From Acidimicrobiia bacterium (lineage in GTDB: Bacteria > Acidobacteriota > Vicinamibacteria > Vicinamibacterales > UBA2999): a stretch of DNA of 43,282 bases. The translations under genes and the position numbers were made by a program. The first letter of the stretch is position 1, and each line of letters starts with the position of its first letter. The stretch covers positions 1 through 43,282 of the forward strand of contig VFYY01000012.1 of NCBI GenBank assembly GCA_016871375.1, in the 5' to 3' direction. The notes below the pieces were generated by a model, which had not been told where the DNA came from, ran no database searches, and was given only the letters and a program-made list of their open reading frames with translations. Positions 5,860 through 41,305 of the stretch are shown here, one piece after another.

Positions 5860-5860
5860 C

Positions 5861-5947
5861 GATTTGCGATTTGCGATTTGTGATTTGTGATTTCAAATCA
5901 CAAATCAAAGATCACAAATCACAAATCACAAATCACAAATCACGAAT
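5861..5947 (+). repeat. heptad repeat block with internal dyad, GATTTGT/CAAATCA
   Basis: Four 7-base units GATTTG(C/T) (5861-5888) and a partial one run into seven inverted units of type CAAATCA (5894-5942; one reads AAGATCA). The two halves can pair into a long imperfect hairpin. The block occupies the whole yceD-rpmF spacer and no Shine-Dalgarno sequence is left before the rpmF ATG. Confidence 0.9.
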
Positions 5948-6132: not shown

Positions 6133-6222
6133 TGTGTGATTTGTGATTTGTGAATTGTGATTTGTGATCGGAAATCACAGACAGTGAATCGCAAATCACA
6201 AATCGCAAATCGCAAATCGCAG
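6133..6222 (+). repeat. second heptad block with dyad, between rpmF and plsX
   Basis: Units GATTTGT, GATTTGT, GAATTGT, GATTTGT lead into the inverted set AAATCAC, AAATCGC repeated up to the base before the plsX start codon. Same unit and same tandem-then-inverted design as the block at 5861-5947, but diverged in copy number and in the central part. Confidence 0.88.
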
Positions 6223-13911: not shown

Positions 13912-13967
13912 GATTTGTGATTTGCGATTTGCGATTTGGGTTTTGGGATTTGGGATTTGGGATTTGT
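13912..13967 (+). repeat. eight tandem heptads GATTTGN
   Basis: GATTTGT, GATTTGC twice, GATTTGG, GTTTTGG, GATTTGG twice, GATTTGT. Unlike the two earlier blocks there is no inverted half. It starts one base after the ETF-QO stop, and its last unit supplies the GTG start of the next gene. Confidence 0.92.
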
Positions 13968-38298: not shown

Positions 38299-39165
38299 TT
38301 AGGTCGCCTCGACGTCCGGCGCAGGAGATGGTGCTGGCGTCTTCTTCCTGGGCGTGAACGCCGTCGGCCGGCATCAGGCGATCGAGAATCTTCACGCCGC
38401 TCCACTGCACCGCGCAGCCAACGCCGATCGCTGTCCAGAAGTCATTCACGTTCACGGTGACCGGGAACTGCGAGGCGGCCATCTTCGACAGGAGAATCGT
38501 GCCGGTCGTGCTCAGCAGCAGCGCCCCTGCCGCACCCAGCGCCAGGCCGCCGATGGCTGCCAGCGTGGAACGAGCCGGATGTGTGCGGCCCGACCACCGC
38601 CGTATCTCCCGGATCGCGTAGGCCAGGAGTCCGCCGATCGCGGCGCCGAGCAGCAGGACCGGCACGGGCACGGCAATGGGCATCGTGGCCGTGTGCATGC
38701 TGGTGCCGTAGACGTTGGCGTCCAGCTGATACGCGCCCGTCTGCTCTTCTCGCGTCGCGGTGGTCCAGTACTTGGCCGCGGCGACGACCTCGTAGTCGCC
38801 CGGCCAGAAGAACACGAACTGCAGCTGGGACCACGCCTGTCCCAGAGGGCCGACGTTTGTCTGCGTCCCGGGCGTCCAGAGGGTGGTGTATGTCTGGCCG
38901 GGTCCAATCACGATGACGTTGTCGCGGCGGCTGTTGTTCTTGCTCTCCGTGTGCTCGGTCGGGAAAAACGCCTCGTAACTGAACATCTCCCCGCGCTGGC
39001 CCTCGAGCTCCAGCGGCAGCGACAGCGACAAGTCTGATTCCCGCAGATAGAGGGGACCGTCGGAGACGTTCCGGATGATGCCGACGATGCCCAGCCCGCC
39101 GCCGGCGACGAGGCGCGACGCAGTCGGTCTCAGTTCAATCGAGATCGGGGGGGCCGTGGACCTGG
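38299..39165 (-). pseudogene. broken membrane-protein gene (no start, 3' frameshift)
   Basis: The frame from about 39165 down reads as convincing protein: ISIELRPTASRLVAGGGLGIVGIIRNVSDGPLYLRES, FFWPGDYEVVAAAKYW, then membrane segments MPIAVPVPVLLLGAAIGGLLAYAI, IGGLALGAAGALLLSTTGTILL and VNDFWTAIGVGCAVQWSG. It has no ATG, GTG or TTG before the conserved part, and a run of seven G (39147-39153) sits at the prmA end. At 38365-38378 the frame must shift to reach a natural end, PTAFTPRKKTPAPSPAPDVEAT, whose TAA (38301-38299) lies 2 bases from the rsmE stop; without the shift the frame runs antisense through rsmE. Either a decayed gene or base errors. Function not recognised. Confidence 0.6.
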
Positions 39166-40110
39166 GCCAGAACCGGCCCGTTTGCGCACGATGTCCGCGG
39201 TACTCGTCGCCGTGACGCAGAGCCACTCGTCTTCGGCAGTCCGGCTGCGGACCTCGAAGCCGTCGTACGCGGCGAGCACATCGCGCTCCTCGTGCGTCAT
39301 GAAGCCGCTCAGCACGAGCGTGCCGTCCGGCGCAGTGACCGCCTGCAGCGCGGCGGCAGTCTGCACGAGCAGTCCGCCCGTCAGGTTCGCGATGACGACG
39401 TCGAACCGGCCGAGATTCGCCGCGCGCAGATCGACCGTCTGGAGCCGCACGTGCACGCCCTCGTTGAGCCGGACGTTCTCCGTCGCGGATTCGATCGCAT
39501 CCGGGTCGTCGTCTATGGCGACGACGGCTGCCGCCCCGAGGCGGCTGGCGGCGATGGCAAGGACGCCGGAGCCGGTGCCGACGTCGAGCACTCGCGTGCC
39601 GCGCAGGTCGAGCGCCTGCAGCGCGGCCAGGCACAGGCGCGTGGTCGCATGATGCCCGGTGCCGAAGCCCATCGAGGGCTGGATGATGATGGTGATGGGC
39701 CGACTAAAGTCGGCCCCTACTCTAGGGGCCGACTTTGTTCGGCCCGGGTCCCGATCCGTAGGGGCCGACTTTGTTCGGCTCGGGTCCCGATCCGTAGGGG
39801 CCGACTTTAGTCGGCCCGTCTCCCACGGCGGGGCGACGATGATGTGGCCGACCTGGACGGCGCGCAGGCTGGCCTGCGACCGCGCGGCCCAGTCCTCGTC
39901 GGGGACGTCGAGCGCCGTGAAGGTCAGCTCGGGAAACTGAGAGGGGAGCGCCGCCAGCGCCGCGTCGCGGTCGGCCGCCGCGTGGAAATAGACGCGCCCG
40001 GCGTCTTCGTCCACCGCCGCAACGTCGTAATCGAGAAGTGCCGCGAGAACGAGATCGGAAAGACGAGAAGCCTCGAGAGCGGGTGAAGGACGCGGAGTCT
40101 TGGCTACCAC
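39130..40110 (-). CDS. prmA: ribosomal protein L11 methyltransferase PrmA
   Basis: 326 residues. SAM motif VLDVGTGSGVLAIAASRLGA (174-193), IIIQPSMGFGTGHHATTRLCLAAL before it, VIANLTGGLL as the NPPY-like motif, and a C-terminal end TAEDEWLCVTATS. The N-terminal substrate-recognition domain is shorter than in E. coli. Residues ~98-138 (LKSAPTDRDPSRTKSAPTDRD and on to GADFSRP) are an insertion between IIVAPPWE and ITIIIQPSMGFG, encoded by four GGGCCGAC palindromes in a 36-base tandem array (39697-39820). The GTG start at 40110 lies in the first unit of a CTACCAC heptad block. The end GSGPGPRPPRSRLN is atypical and lies beside a seven-G run. Confidence 0.9.
   Translation of the reverse strand: MVAKTPRPSPALEASRLSDLVLAALLDYDVAAVDEDAGRVYFHAAADRDAALAALPSQFPELTFTALDVPDEDWAARSQASLRAVQVGHIIVAPPWETGRLKSAPTDRDPSRTKSAPTDRDPGRTKSAPRVGADFSRPITIIIQPSMGFGTGHHATTRLCLAALQALDLRGTRVLDVGTGSGVLAIAASRLGAAAVVAIDDDPDAIESATENVRLNEGVHVRLQTVDLRAANLGRFDVVIANLTGGLLVQTAAALQAVTAPDGTLVLSGFMTHEERDVLAAYDGFEVRSRTAEDEWLCVTATSTADIVRKRAGSGPGPRPPRSRLN
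39697..39820 (-). repeat. four palindromes, 36-bp tandem array inside prmA
   Basis: GGGCCGACT-type hairpins at 39697-39716, 39726-39745, 39762-39780 (imperfect) and 39798-39817. Units 39725-39760 and 39761-39796 are near-identical 36-base direct repeats (one or two differences), each a hairpin plus a GGGTCCCGATCCGTA linker; a third begins at 39797. 36 is a multiple of three, so copy number can change without breaking the frame. The encoded peptide unit is SAPTDRDP(S/G)RTK. Confidence 0.93.
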
Positions 40111-40159
40111 CTGCGACCTACCACCTACGACCTACCACCTACCACCTACGACCTACGAC
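40104..40159 (+). repeat. eight tandem heptads CTAC(C/G)AC
   Basis: CTACCAC, CTGCGAC, CTACCAC, CTACGAC, CTACCAC twice, CTACGAC twice. It fills the dnaJ-prmA gap. On the minus strand the next unit's TAG is the dnaJ stop and the last unit's GTG is the prmA start. The GGTGG/TAGGT units are the only possible ribosome site for prmA. Confidence 0.93.
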
Positions 40160-41305
40160 CTAGCCGAAGATGTCTTTGACCCGCCCGAAAATCCCCTTGT
40201 CGTCCTGCGCGGCCTCGGTCGGCTCGAACTTCTCCTTGGGCAGCGACGAGGCGAGCTGCTCGAGCAGCTTCTTCTGCTCCTTCGTCAGCTTCTTCGGCGT
40301 GACCACCTTGACCGTGATGTTGAGATCGCCGTGGCCGCGGCCGGAGACGTCGGGCATGCCGCGGCCGCGCAGGCGGAACGTCGTGCCCGTCTCCGTGCTT
40401 TCCGGCACCGCGAACGGCTCCTCGCCGTCCAGCGTCGGGATGGCAATCGTGCCGCCGAGCGCGAGCGTGGTGAAGTTCACCGGAATCTCGGCGTAGAGGT
40501 CGTTGCCGTCGCGCTGGAAGAACTTGTGCTCCTGGACGTGGATGACCACGTAGAGGTCGCCCGGCGGTCCGCCGCCCGACCCGGATTCGCCTTCGCCGGA
40601 GAGCCGCATCCGCTGTCCGGTCGCGATGCCGGCCGGGATGCGGACCGTCAGCTTCTTTTCCTTCTGGACGCGGCCCGCGCCGCGGCACGTCTGGCAGGGC
40701 TTCGTGATGAGCTGGCCGGTTCCGCGGCAATGGCCGCAGGTCCGCGCCACCGTGAAGAACCCCTGCTGATACCGGAGCTGCCCGCGTCCCTGGCACTGCG
40801 GGCACGTGGTCGGCTTCGACCCGGGCGCCGAGCCGCTGCCGTGGCAGGCCTCGCACGTCTCCTGCCGCGGGATCTGGATCGCCGTCTCGGAGCCCTTCGC
40901 CGACTCCTCGAACGAGATCTCGAGGTCGTAGCGCAGGTCCGCGCCGCGCGCGGGGCCGCCGCGGCGGCGGGCGCCCGCCGCGCCGAGCACGTCGCCGAAG
41001 CCGAAGATGTCGCCGAGGCCGCCGAGGATGTCCTCGAAGCCGGTGAAGACCGTCGGATCGAAGCCGCCGGTCGCGGCGCCGCCCAGGCCGGCGTGGCCGA
41101 AGCGGTCGTACATGTGCCGCTTGTCGGAGTCGGCGAGCACGGAGTACGCCTCCGCCGCCTCCTTGAACTTGTCCTCGGCCTCCTTGCTTCCGGGGTTGCG
41201 GTCGGGATGGAACTTGAGCGCCAGCTTGCGGTACGCGCTCTTGATGTCCTGTTCGCCGGCGTTGCGCGGGACGCCCAGGACCTCGTAGTAGTCGCGCTTA
41301 CTCAC
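40160..41305 (-). CDS. dnaJ: chaperone DnaJ
   Basis: 381 residues, type I Hsp40 that stimulates DnaK. J-domain with HPD ([20 protein letters not shown]), Gly/Phe-rich linker ([14 protein letters not shown]), four CxxCxGxG zinc repeats ([32 protein letters not shown]), and the substrate-binding C-terminal domain ([38 protein letters not shown]). GTG 41305 gives [12 protein letters not shown], the family start; a TTG 9 bases upstream is less likely. It overlaps grpE by 8 bases. The stop codon is the first triplet of a heptad repeat block. dnaK is not in the window. Confidence 0.95.

Follow-up and report, generated by a model that had tools for sequence, protein, structure and literature searches.

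The closest described systems are the GTAG REPs, small GTAG-tagged palindromes that PMC3733652 and PMC2817692 associate with RAYT transposases. Intragenic GTAG REPs, including grouped REPs that code for 43–82 amino acids, are described by Di Nocera et al. (2013, PMC3733652). Rickettsia palindromic elements (RPEs) are likewise small palindromes that lie in frame in housekeeping proteins and form short foreign peptides at tolerant sites. The REPIN/RAYT systems (PMC3116915, PMC2817692) are built on inverted REP pairs. The protein concerned here, PrmA, binds ribosomal protein L11 through its N-terminal domain, and a small three-stranded sheet joins its catalytic domain to the interdomain helix (review, PMC3347575). 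In E. coli, a prmA mutant shows wild-type growth and no noticeable difference from the wild type (PMC3347575).

The window analyzed here is the whole 43,282-nucleotide stretch of contig VFYY01000012.1 (assembly GCA_016871375.1), which belongs to an Acidobacteriota genome of 4.2 Mb (295 contigs, 91.7% complete, metagenome-type assembly). The gene that hosts the repeats is prmA (39130..40110, minus strand), which encodes the ribosomal protein L11 methyltransferase. It is third in the gene order grpE-dnaJ-prmA and forms an intact ORF of 326 codons as predicted. A Pfam profile search identifies its product as PrmA (PF06325, E 4.8e-51), and T. thermophilus PrmA structures are its best relatives in the PDB. 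The gene is single-copy, with no other strong PrmA match in the host genome. Both halves of the protein are preserved around the repeats. In an alignment with relatives, FGTGHH is invariant and the D-G-TGSG motif is nearly invariant, indicating that the SAM-binding motifs are present. The N-terminal L11-binding domain also aligns with relatives and is mostly confident in the AlphaFold model.

The REP cluster of prmA (39697..39817, minus strand, 121 bp) contains four palindromes of ~20 bp of the GGGCCGACTTTAGTCGGCCC type (39697–39716, 39726–39745, 39762–39781 and 39798–39817). The first palindrome has the opposite orientation to the other three, which are spaced 36 bp apart as a tandem array. 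Tandem Repeats Finder (TRF) defines a 36-bp unit in 2.7 copies (39723–39818, 93% matches), whose two full copies differ by one base (97% identity). REP 1 (GTAGGGGCCGACTTTAGTCGGCCC; 39697..39720, minus strand) directs its GTAG end inward. REP 2 (palindrome GGGCCGACTTTGTTCGGCCC; 39722..39745, plus strand) belongs to the first 36-bp unit and carries the degenerate tag CTAG, and REP 3 (GTAGGGGCCGACTTTGTTCGGCTC; 39758..39781, plus strand) belongs to the second unit. REP 4 (GTAGGGGCCGACTTTAGTCGGCCC; 39794..39817, plus strand) again has its GTAG end inward and pairs with REP 1 as a 30-bp inverted repeat. A 20-mer search with up to three mismatches returned 6 strand-hits in the window, compared with 0.01 expected from shuffles. 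On the gene strand, a single frame is open through the array; it is the one that prmA uses, reads TGRLKSAPTDRDPSRTKSAPTDRDPGRTKSAPRVGADFSRP and places ~41 residues in the protein (GRLKSAPTDRDP...VGADFSRP). The first-pass annotation had described an in-frame insertion of a tandem hairpin unit divisible by three, and the sole open frame and the 36-bp period bear this out. Its four hairpins are also present as four palindromes, but they are not four equal units, given the inversion of the first. A CRISPR reading of the cluster was dropped on inspection: the palindromes are near-perfect and often inverted, and the repeated spacers are very short.

The palindrome is dispersed throughout the host genome. 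The pattern GGGCCGACTTNNNTCGGCCC yields 62+69 matches with up to two mismatches, versus 2+1 for the reversed control, and 55+45 matches with one mismatch, versus 0–1 in each of 58 relatives. Because the palindrome can match both strands, summed hits overstate the sites roughly twofold, and the ~100 near-exact strand hits amount to ~50 palindromic sites. The element takes the form GTAG-GGGCCGAC-TTTA-GTCGGCCC, with a stem in the 5–13-bp range of GTAG REPs, a short loop and GTAG at one end. When the middle is left free, the GTAG-tagged form occurs 53+43 times in the host genome, 27+18 times in the relative G004 and 22+19 times in the relative G012 (control, 0), and in smaller numbers in nine other relatives. 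The versions in relatives are mostly a slightly longer palindrome, GTAGGGGCSGACCTTNAGGTCSGCC. The fetched regions of the host genome contain 66 REPs in 32 clusters, about a third of them under an open frame with coding flanks; like other GTAG REPs, the family thus has many dispersed copies that lie mostly outside genes. Opposite-orientation pairs and larger clusters are present (C6, C12, C110 and C191). A lone REP is open in three of its six frames (VGADFSRP, GRLKSAP and GPTKVGPY), and the REP-bearing host genes read these frames or variants of them. The prmA array is not special to prmA but one cluster of a genome-wide, GTAG-tagged REP family.

In-frame REPs in other genes of the host genome were called by a codon-usage test on both flanks combined with a reading of the frame, and the protein families were confirmed by family searches. 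In MnmE, the in-frame REPs separate the NKCD motif of the GTPase from its SAK motif; in MutL they lie in a linker, and in a CT_A_B/CT_C_D carboxyltransferase fusion they occupy the interdomain segment. A class II ribonucleotide reductase has two such in-frame sites, and a Maf protein has a degenerate in-frame copy. DusB and a spermidine-synthase-like membrane protein also contain REPs in frame. The MnmE insertion is a ~50-residue REP pair with repetitive filler (L177:2017–2167; G000 contig C6). The hemC gene (hydroxymethylbilane synthase) carries 15 REPs in frame (L196:1983–2517; G000 contig C110:7382–7916), one inverted and 14 direct with a 36-bp period, which encode ~180 residues of (VGADFSRPRGSD)n with a 12-residue period. 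No other hemC was found in the host genome, and the HemC Pfam profile is split around the array (2–119 and 109–206), resuming where it stopped. The copy number in hemC may be wrong, because the 540-bp array exceeds a short read. At two further loci, the REP supplies the TAG stop of the upstream gene, namely gcvT before gcvH (L185:744–763) and a sigma-factor-like gene (L190:1985–2004). The coding flanks share a frame at both loci, which were rejected as in-frame insertions because the internal stop is the TAG of the upstream gene. Another candidate (L179) was dropped because its left flank is not coding-like.

In PrmA, the inserted segment follows ...IIVAPPWE and precedes ITIIIQPSMGFGTGHH, within a surface loop that varies in length in Acidobacteriota (APPW...QPSMGFGTGHH). 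The corresponding stretch of T. thermophilus PrmA is about 4 residues long (residues 85–88). The loop comprises 10–22 residues in most Acidobacteriota relatives and spans ~6 to 50 residues across ~100 of them, and these relatives tolerate a wide range of lengths at this site. Under a single rule that counts through the following strand, the median length is 16 residues (quartiles 13 and 22; n = 70 PrmA measured), and the host PrmA has 48. An AlphaFold model of the host protein built with 44 sequences has a mean pLDDT of 86.8, with most positions outside the loop above 90, and its top structural matches are T. thermophilus PrmA entries; the overall PrmA fold is predicted to be retained despite the loop. 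The pLDDT values fall to 66, 54 and 55 for residues 101–110, 111–120 and 121–130, respectively, and residues 101–130 are accordingly predicted to be poorly ordered, which bears on the loop disorder that the first-pass annotation had proposed to check by modeling. The strand order suggests that the loop is part of the small three-stranded sheet. A segment of fixed length and conserved sequence in distant PrmA proteins, which the annotation had named as evidence against its proposal, is not what the relatives contain; their loops at the cluster site are short and unrelated. Its proposed effect on L11 recognition is not supported, nor is contact of the loop with L11: published work assigns L11 binding to the N-terminal domain (PMC3347575), whereas the catalytic domain begins at this loop. 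The annotation also missed that the array belongs to a dispersed, mobile-type REP family present in many genes and that the loops of other species hold different repeats.

The PrmA loop is a recurrent landing place for repeats. TRF applied to 80 prmA genes identifies ~13 with an array scoring at least 60, and nine of these arrays lie in the loop, including one (L113) assigned to it by eye. The loop makes up 6.3% of the sequence, and a simple binomial gives 9e-9 for this concentration, a value that serves as a guide only, since it ignores kinship and since the arrays themselves account for part of the loop length. The loop is filled by REPs in the host prmA and in L097, by heptamers in five other genes (ATTCGGG in L094, CCTCCAA in L108, CCCCAAT in L137, TCCCGAA in L145 and CGTCCCA in L113) and by a 9/18-bp unit in L128. 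Because the units differ among prmA genes, different repeats entered the same loop in different lineages. No precise empty prmA site was seen among the relatives; the closest ones with an unoccupied loop belong to other genera, with PrmA identity of ~60%. Heptamers also form tandem arrays elsewhere in the window (5860–5947, 6135–6221, 13912–13966 and 40104–40162; CGATTTG / CAAATCA, TGTGATT / AATCGCA, GATTTGG and CTACCAC), some of which adjoin arrays of the complementary heptamer. The last of these, (CTACCAC)n (40104..40162, no strand, detected by TRF), lies between dnaJ and prmA and abuts or overlaps the predicted GTG start of prmA. It represents a repeat class separate from the REPs and of the kind that occupies the PrmA loop in other species.

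A connection with transposases is observed in the relative G012, in which a Y1 transposase (RAYT) gene (C115:3916–4236) has GTAGGGGCGGACCTTAAGGTCCGCCCCTAC on both sides within ~250 bp (region L217:1275–2011). The same GTAGGGGCGGACCTTAAGGTCCGCCCCTAC, with related copies, also fills the prmA loop of G012 (L066/L097), which reads IVGADLKDSASPIGADLNSPVGADLKVRPYK. In the host genome, a RAYT gene (L004) has another GTAG-hairpin family on both sides, with five tandem hairpins of the GTAGTGTCCGGCTTTAGCCGGAC type ~37 bp apart on one side (L004:1118–1317; G000 contig C59) and an inverted copy on the other (1866–1888). These hairpins constitute a second REP family with its own transposase in the host genome. 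No cognate RAYT lies beside the prmA-type family at the four Y1 transposase genes found in the host genome (within ~1.5 kb), and the partner may be missing from the assembly because the genome is 91.7% complete and divided into 295 contigs. Mobilization of the prmA-type REPs by a RAYT is therefore suggested by their family membership.

The prmA insertion is very probably a tolerated intragenic GTAG-tagged REP cluster with tandem duplication, whose peptide is a passenger without a function of its own. This explanation draws on the dispersed family, the in-frame reading, the insertions in other genes, the loop tolerance in relatives and the sister REP family that flanks a RAYT. A REP, which is a short palindrome that does not move autonomously and belongs to the type mobilized by RAYT (TnpA-REP) Y1 transposases, would have entered prmA in a reading frame that the element leaves open. 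The entry point would be a turn that precedes the strand running into the SAM domain, a position at which changes in length are tolerated. Tandem duplication of the 36-bp unit of REP plus spacer would then have produced the present set of one inverted and three direct REPs. For the peptide, the most likely state is that of a flexible, tolerated passenger, because REPs are spread over unrelated proteins and because the E. coli prmA mutant is not noticeably different from the wild type; for the latter reason, even a partly impaired PrmA could persist. The insertion is accordingly presumed to be neutral. A more constructive role is quite improbable, namely that REPs in this lineage continually supply core proteins with new segments, inserted in frame at tolerant loops and then extended by 36 bp (12 residues) at a time. 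On that view, the PrmA loop would be a preferred landing site, reached independently by two REP families and by heptamer arrays because a change in length is useful there and not just tolerated.

Other explanations assign the array a function or a different origin. As a selected, contingency-type linker, the array would change its number of 36-bp units by slippage or recombination without a frameshift and thereby adjust how active PrmA is or how it handles L11. The unit length is divisible by three, its two full copies are 97% identical, and the same period has reached 14 direct copies in hemC, indicating that such units can multiply; on these grounds, variation in the length of the prmA array within the species is plausible. 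The occurrence of REPs in many unrelated host proteins, however, argues against a PrmA-specific role. The recognition of L11 by the N-terminal domain and the wild-type growth of the E. coli mutant (PMC3347575) also speak against a selected linker. Selection for variable length is thus very unlikely, and the special length-variable methyltransferase of the first-pass annotation is not established. A role at the RNA level is improbable; on this reading, the hairpins, carried by the prmA mRNA or by an antisense transcript, would slow translation, stabilize the message or end transcription. The prmA-strand RNA of the cluster folds strongly (−91.3 kcal/mol, z = −9.85 versus shuffles), with REP 1 pairing with REP 4, and an action on mRNA has been proposed for REPs elsewhere (PMC3733652). 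However, the cluster sits mid-gene in translated sequence, any inverted REP pair would fold likewise, and an Rfam search of the cluster returned no family above threshold, its sub-threshold matches being mostly microRNA hairpins. A local origin through slippage within a low-complexity loop, without a mobile element, would fit the heptamer arrays in the same loop of several other species but is contradicted by the dispersed copies: the exact palindromes recur ~50 more times elsewhere in the host genome, GTAG-tagged and often as inverted pairs. This origin is extremely unlikely. An assembly or binning artifact, which a fragmented metagenome-type assembly of 295 contigs might invite, is extremely unlikely: the 121-bp cluster can be spanned by one read, the ORF is uninterrupted and preserves both halves of the protein, and independent copies of the element abound elsewhere in the host genome.

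The tolerated REP cluster of prmA is worth recording for its breadth across housekeeping genes and for the repeated hits on one PrmA loop. It shows a small mobile-type palindrome absorbed into core proteins without frame breakage, in a phylum outside the published list. The prmA and hemC arrays, with 4 and 15 REPs, provide a natural series for asking how foreign peptide arrays grow, and the PrmA loop, with different repeats per species, provides a natural map of where the enzyme accepts insertions. For automatic annotation, REP-coded peptides (VGADFSRP, GRLKSAPT) should be expected in conserved proteins and should not be taken for domains.

Compared with the known systems, the element most resembles the intragenic GTAG REPs (PMC3733652). 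It shares with them the GTAG end, an 8–10-bp stem, a short loop, dispersed copies, inverted pairs and clusters; in both cases, some copies lie in frame inside genes, including DNA repair genes, and some supply a TAG stop. The hosts named there are Proteobacteria, Cyanobacteria, Chloroflexi and PVC, whereas the present family is in Acidobacteriota, and the hemC array (~180 amino acids) is longer than the 43–82-amino acid clusters; prmA is not named in the main text of that paper. The RPEs differ in their CGTC tag and other sequence, according to the same paper, whereas the present element has GTAG and tandem 36-bp arrays; it lacks a CGTC-tagged end but shares in-frame insertion into protein genes. 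The REPIN/RAYT systems are matched in the inverted REP pairs and in the sister family that flanks the RAYT of a relative on both sides, but not in a cognate RAYT for the exact prmA-type family, none being found in the incomplete host genome. The heptamer arrays of other Acidobacteriota occupy the same PrmA loop as repeats in frame but are non-palindromic, and because their unit is 7 bp, three units are needed to keep the frame. The prmA repeats belong to a known kind, the intragenic GTAG-REP cluster, which here occurs in Acidobacteriota and is unusually widespread in core genes.
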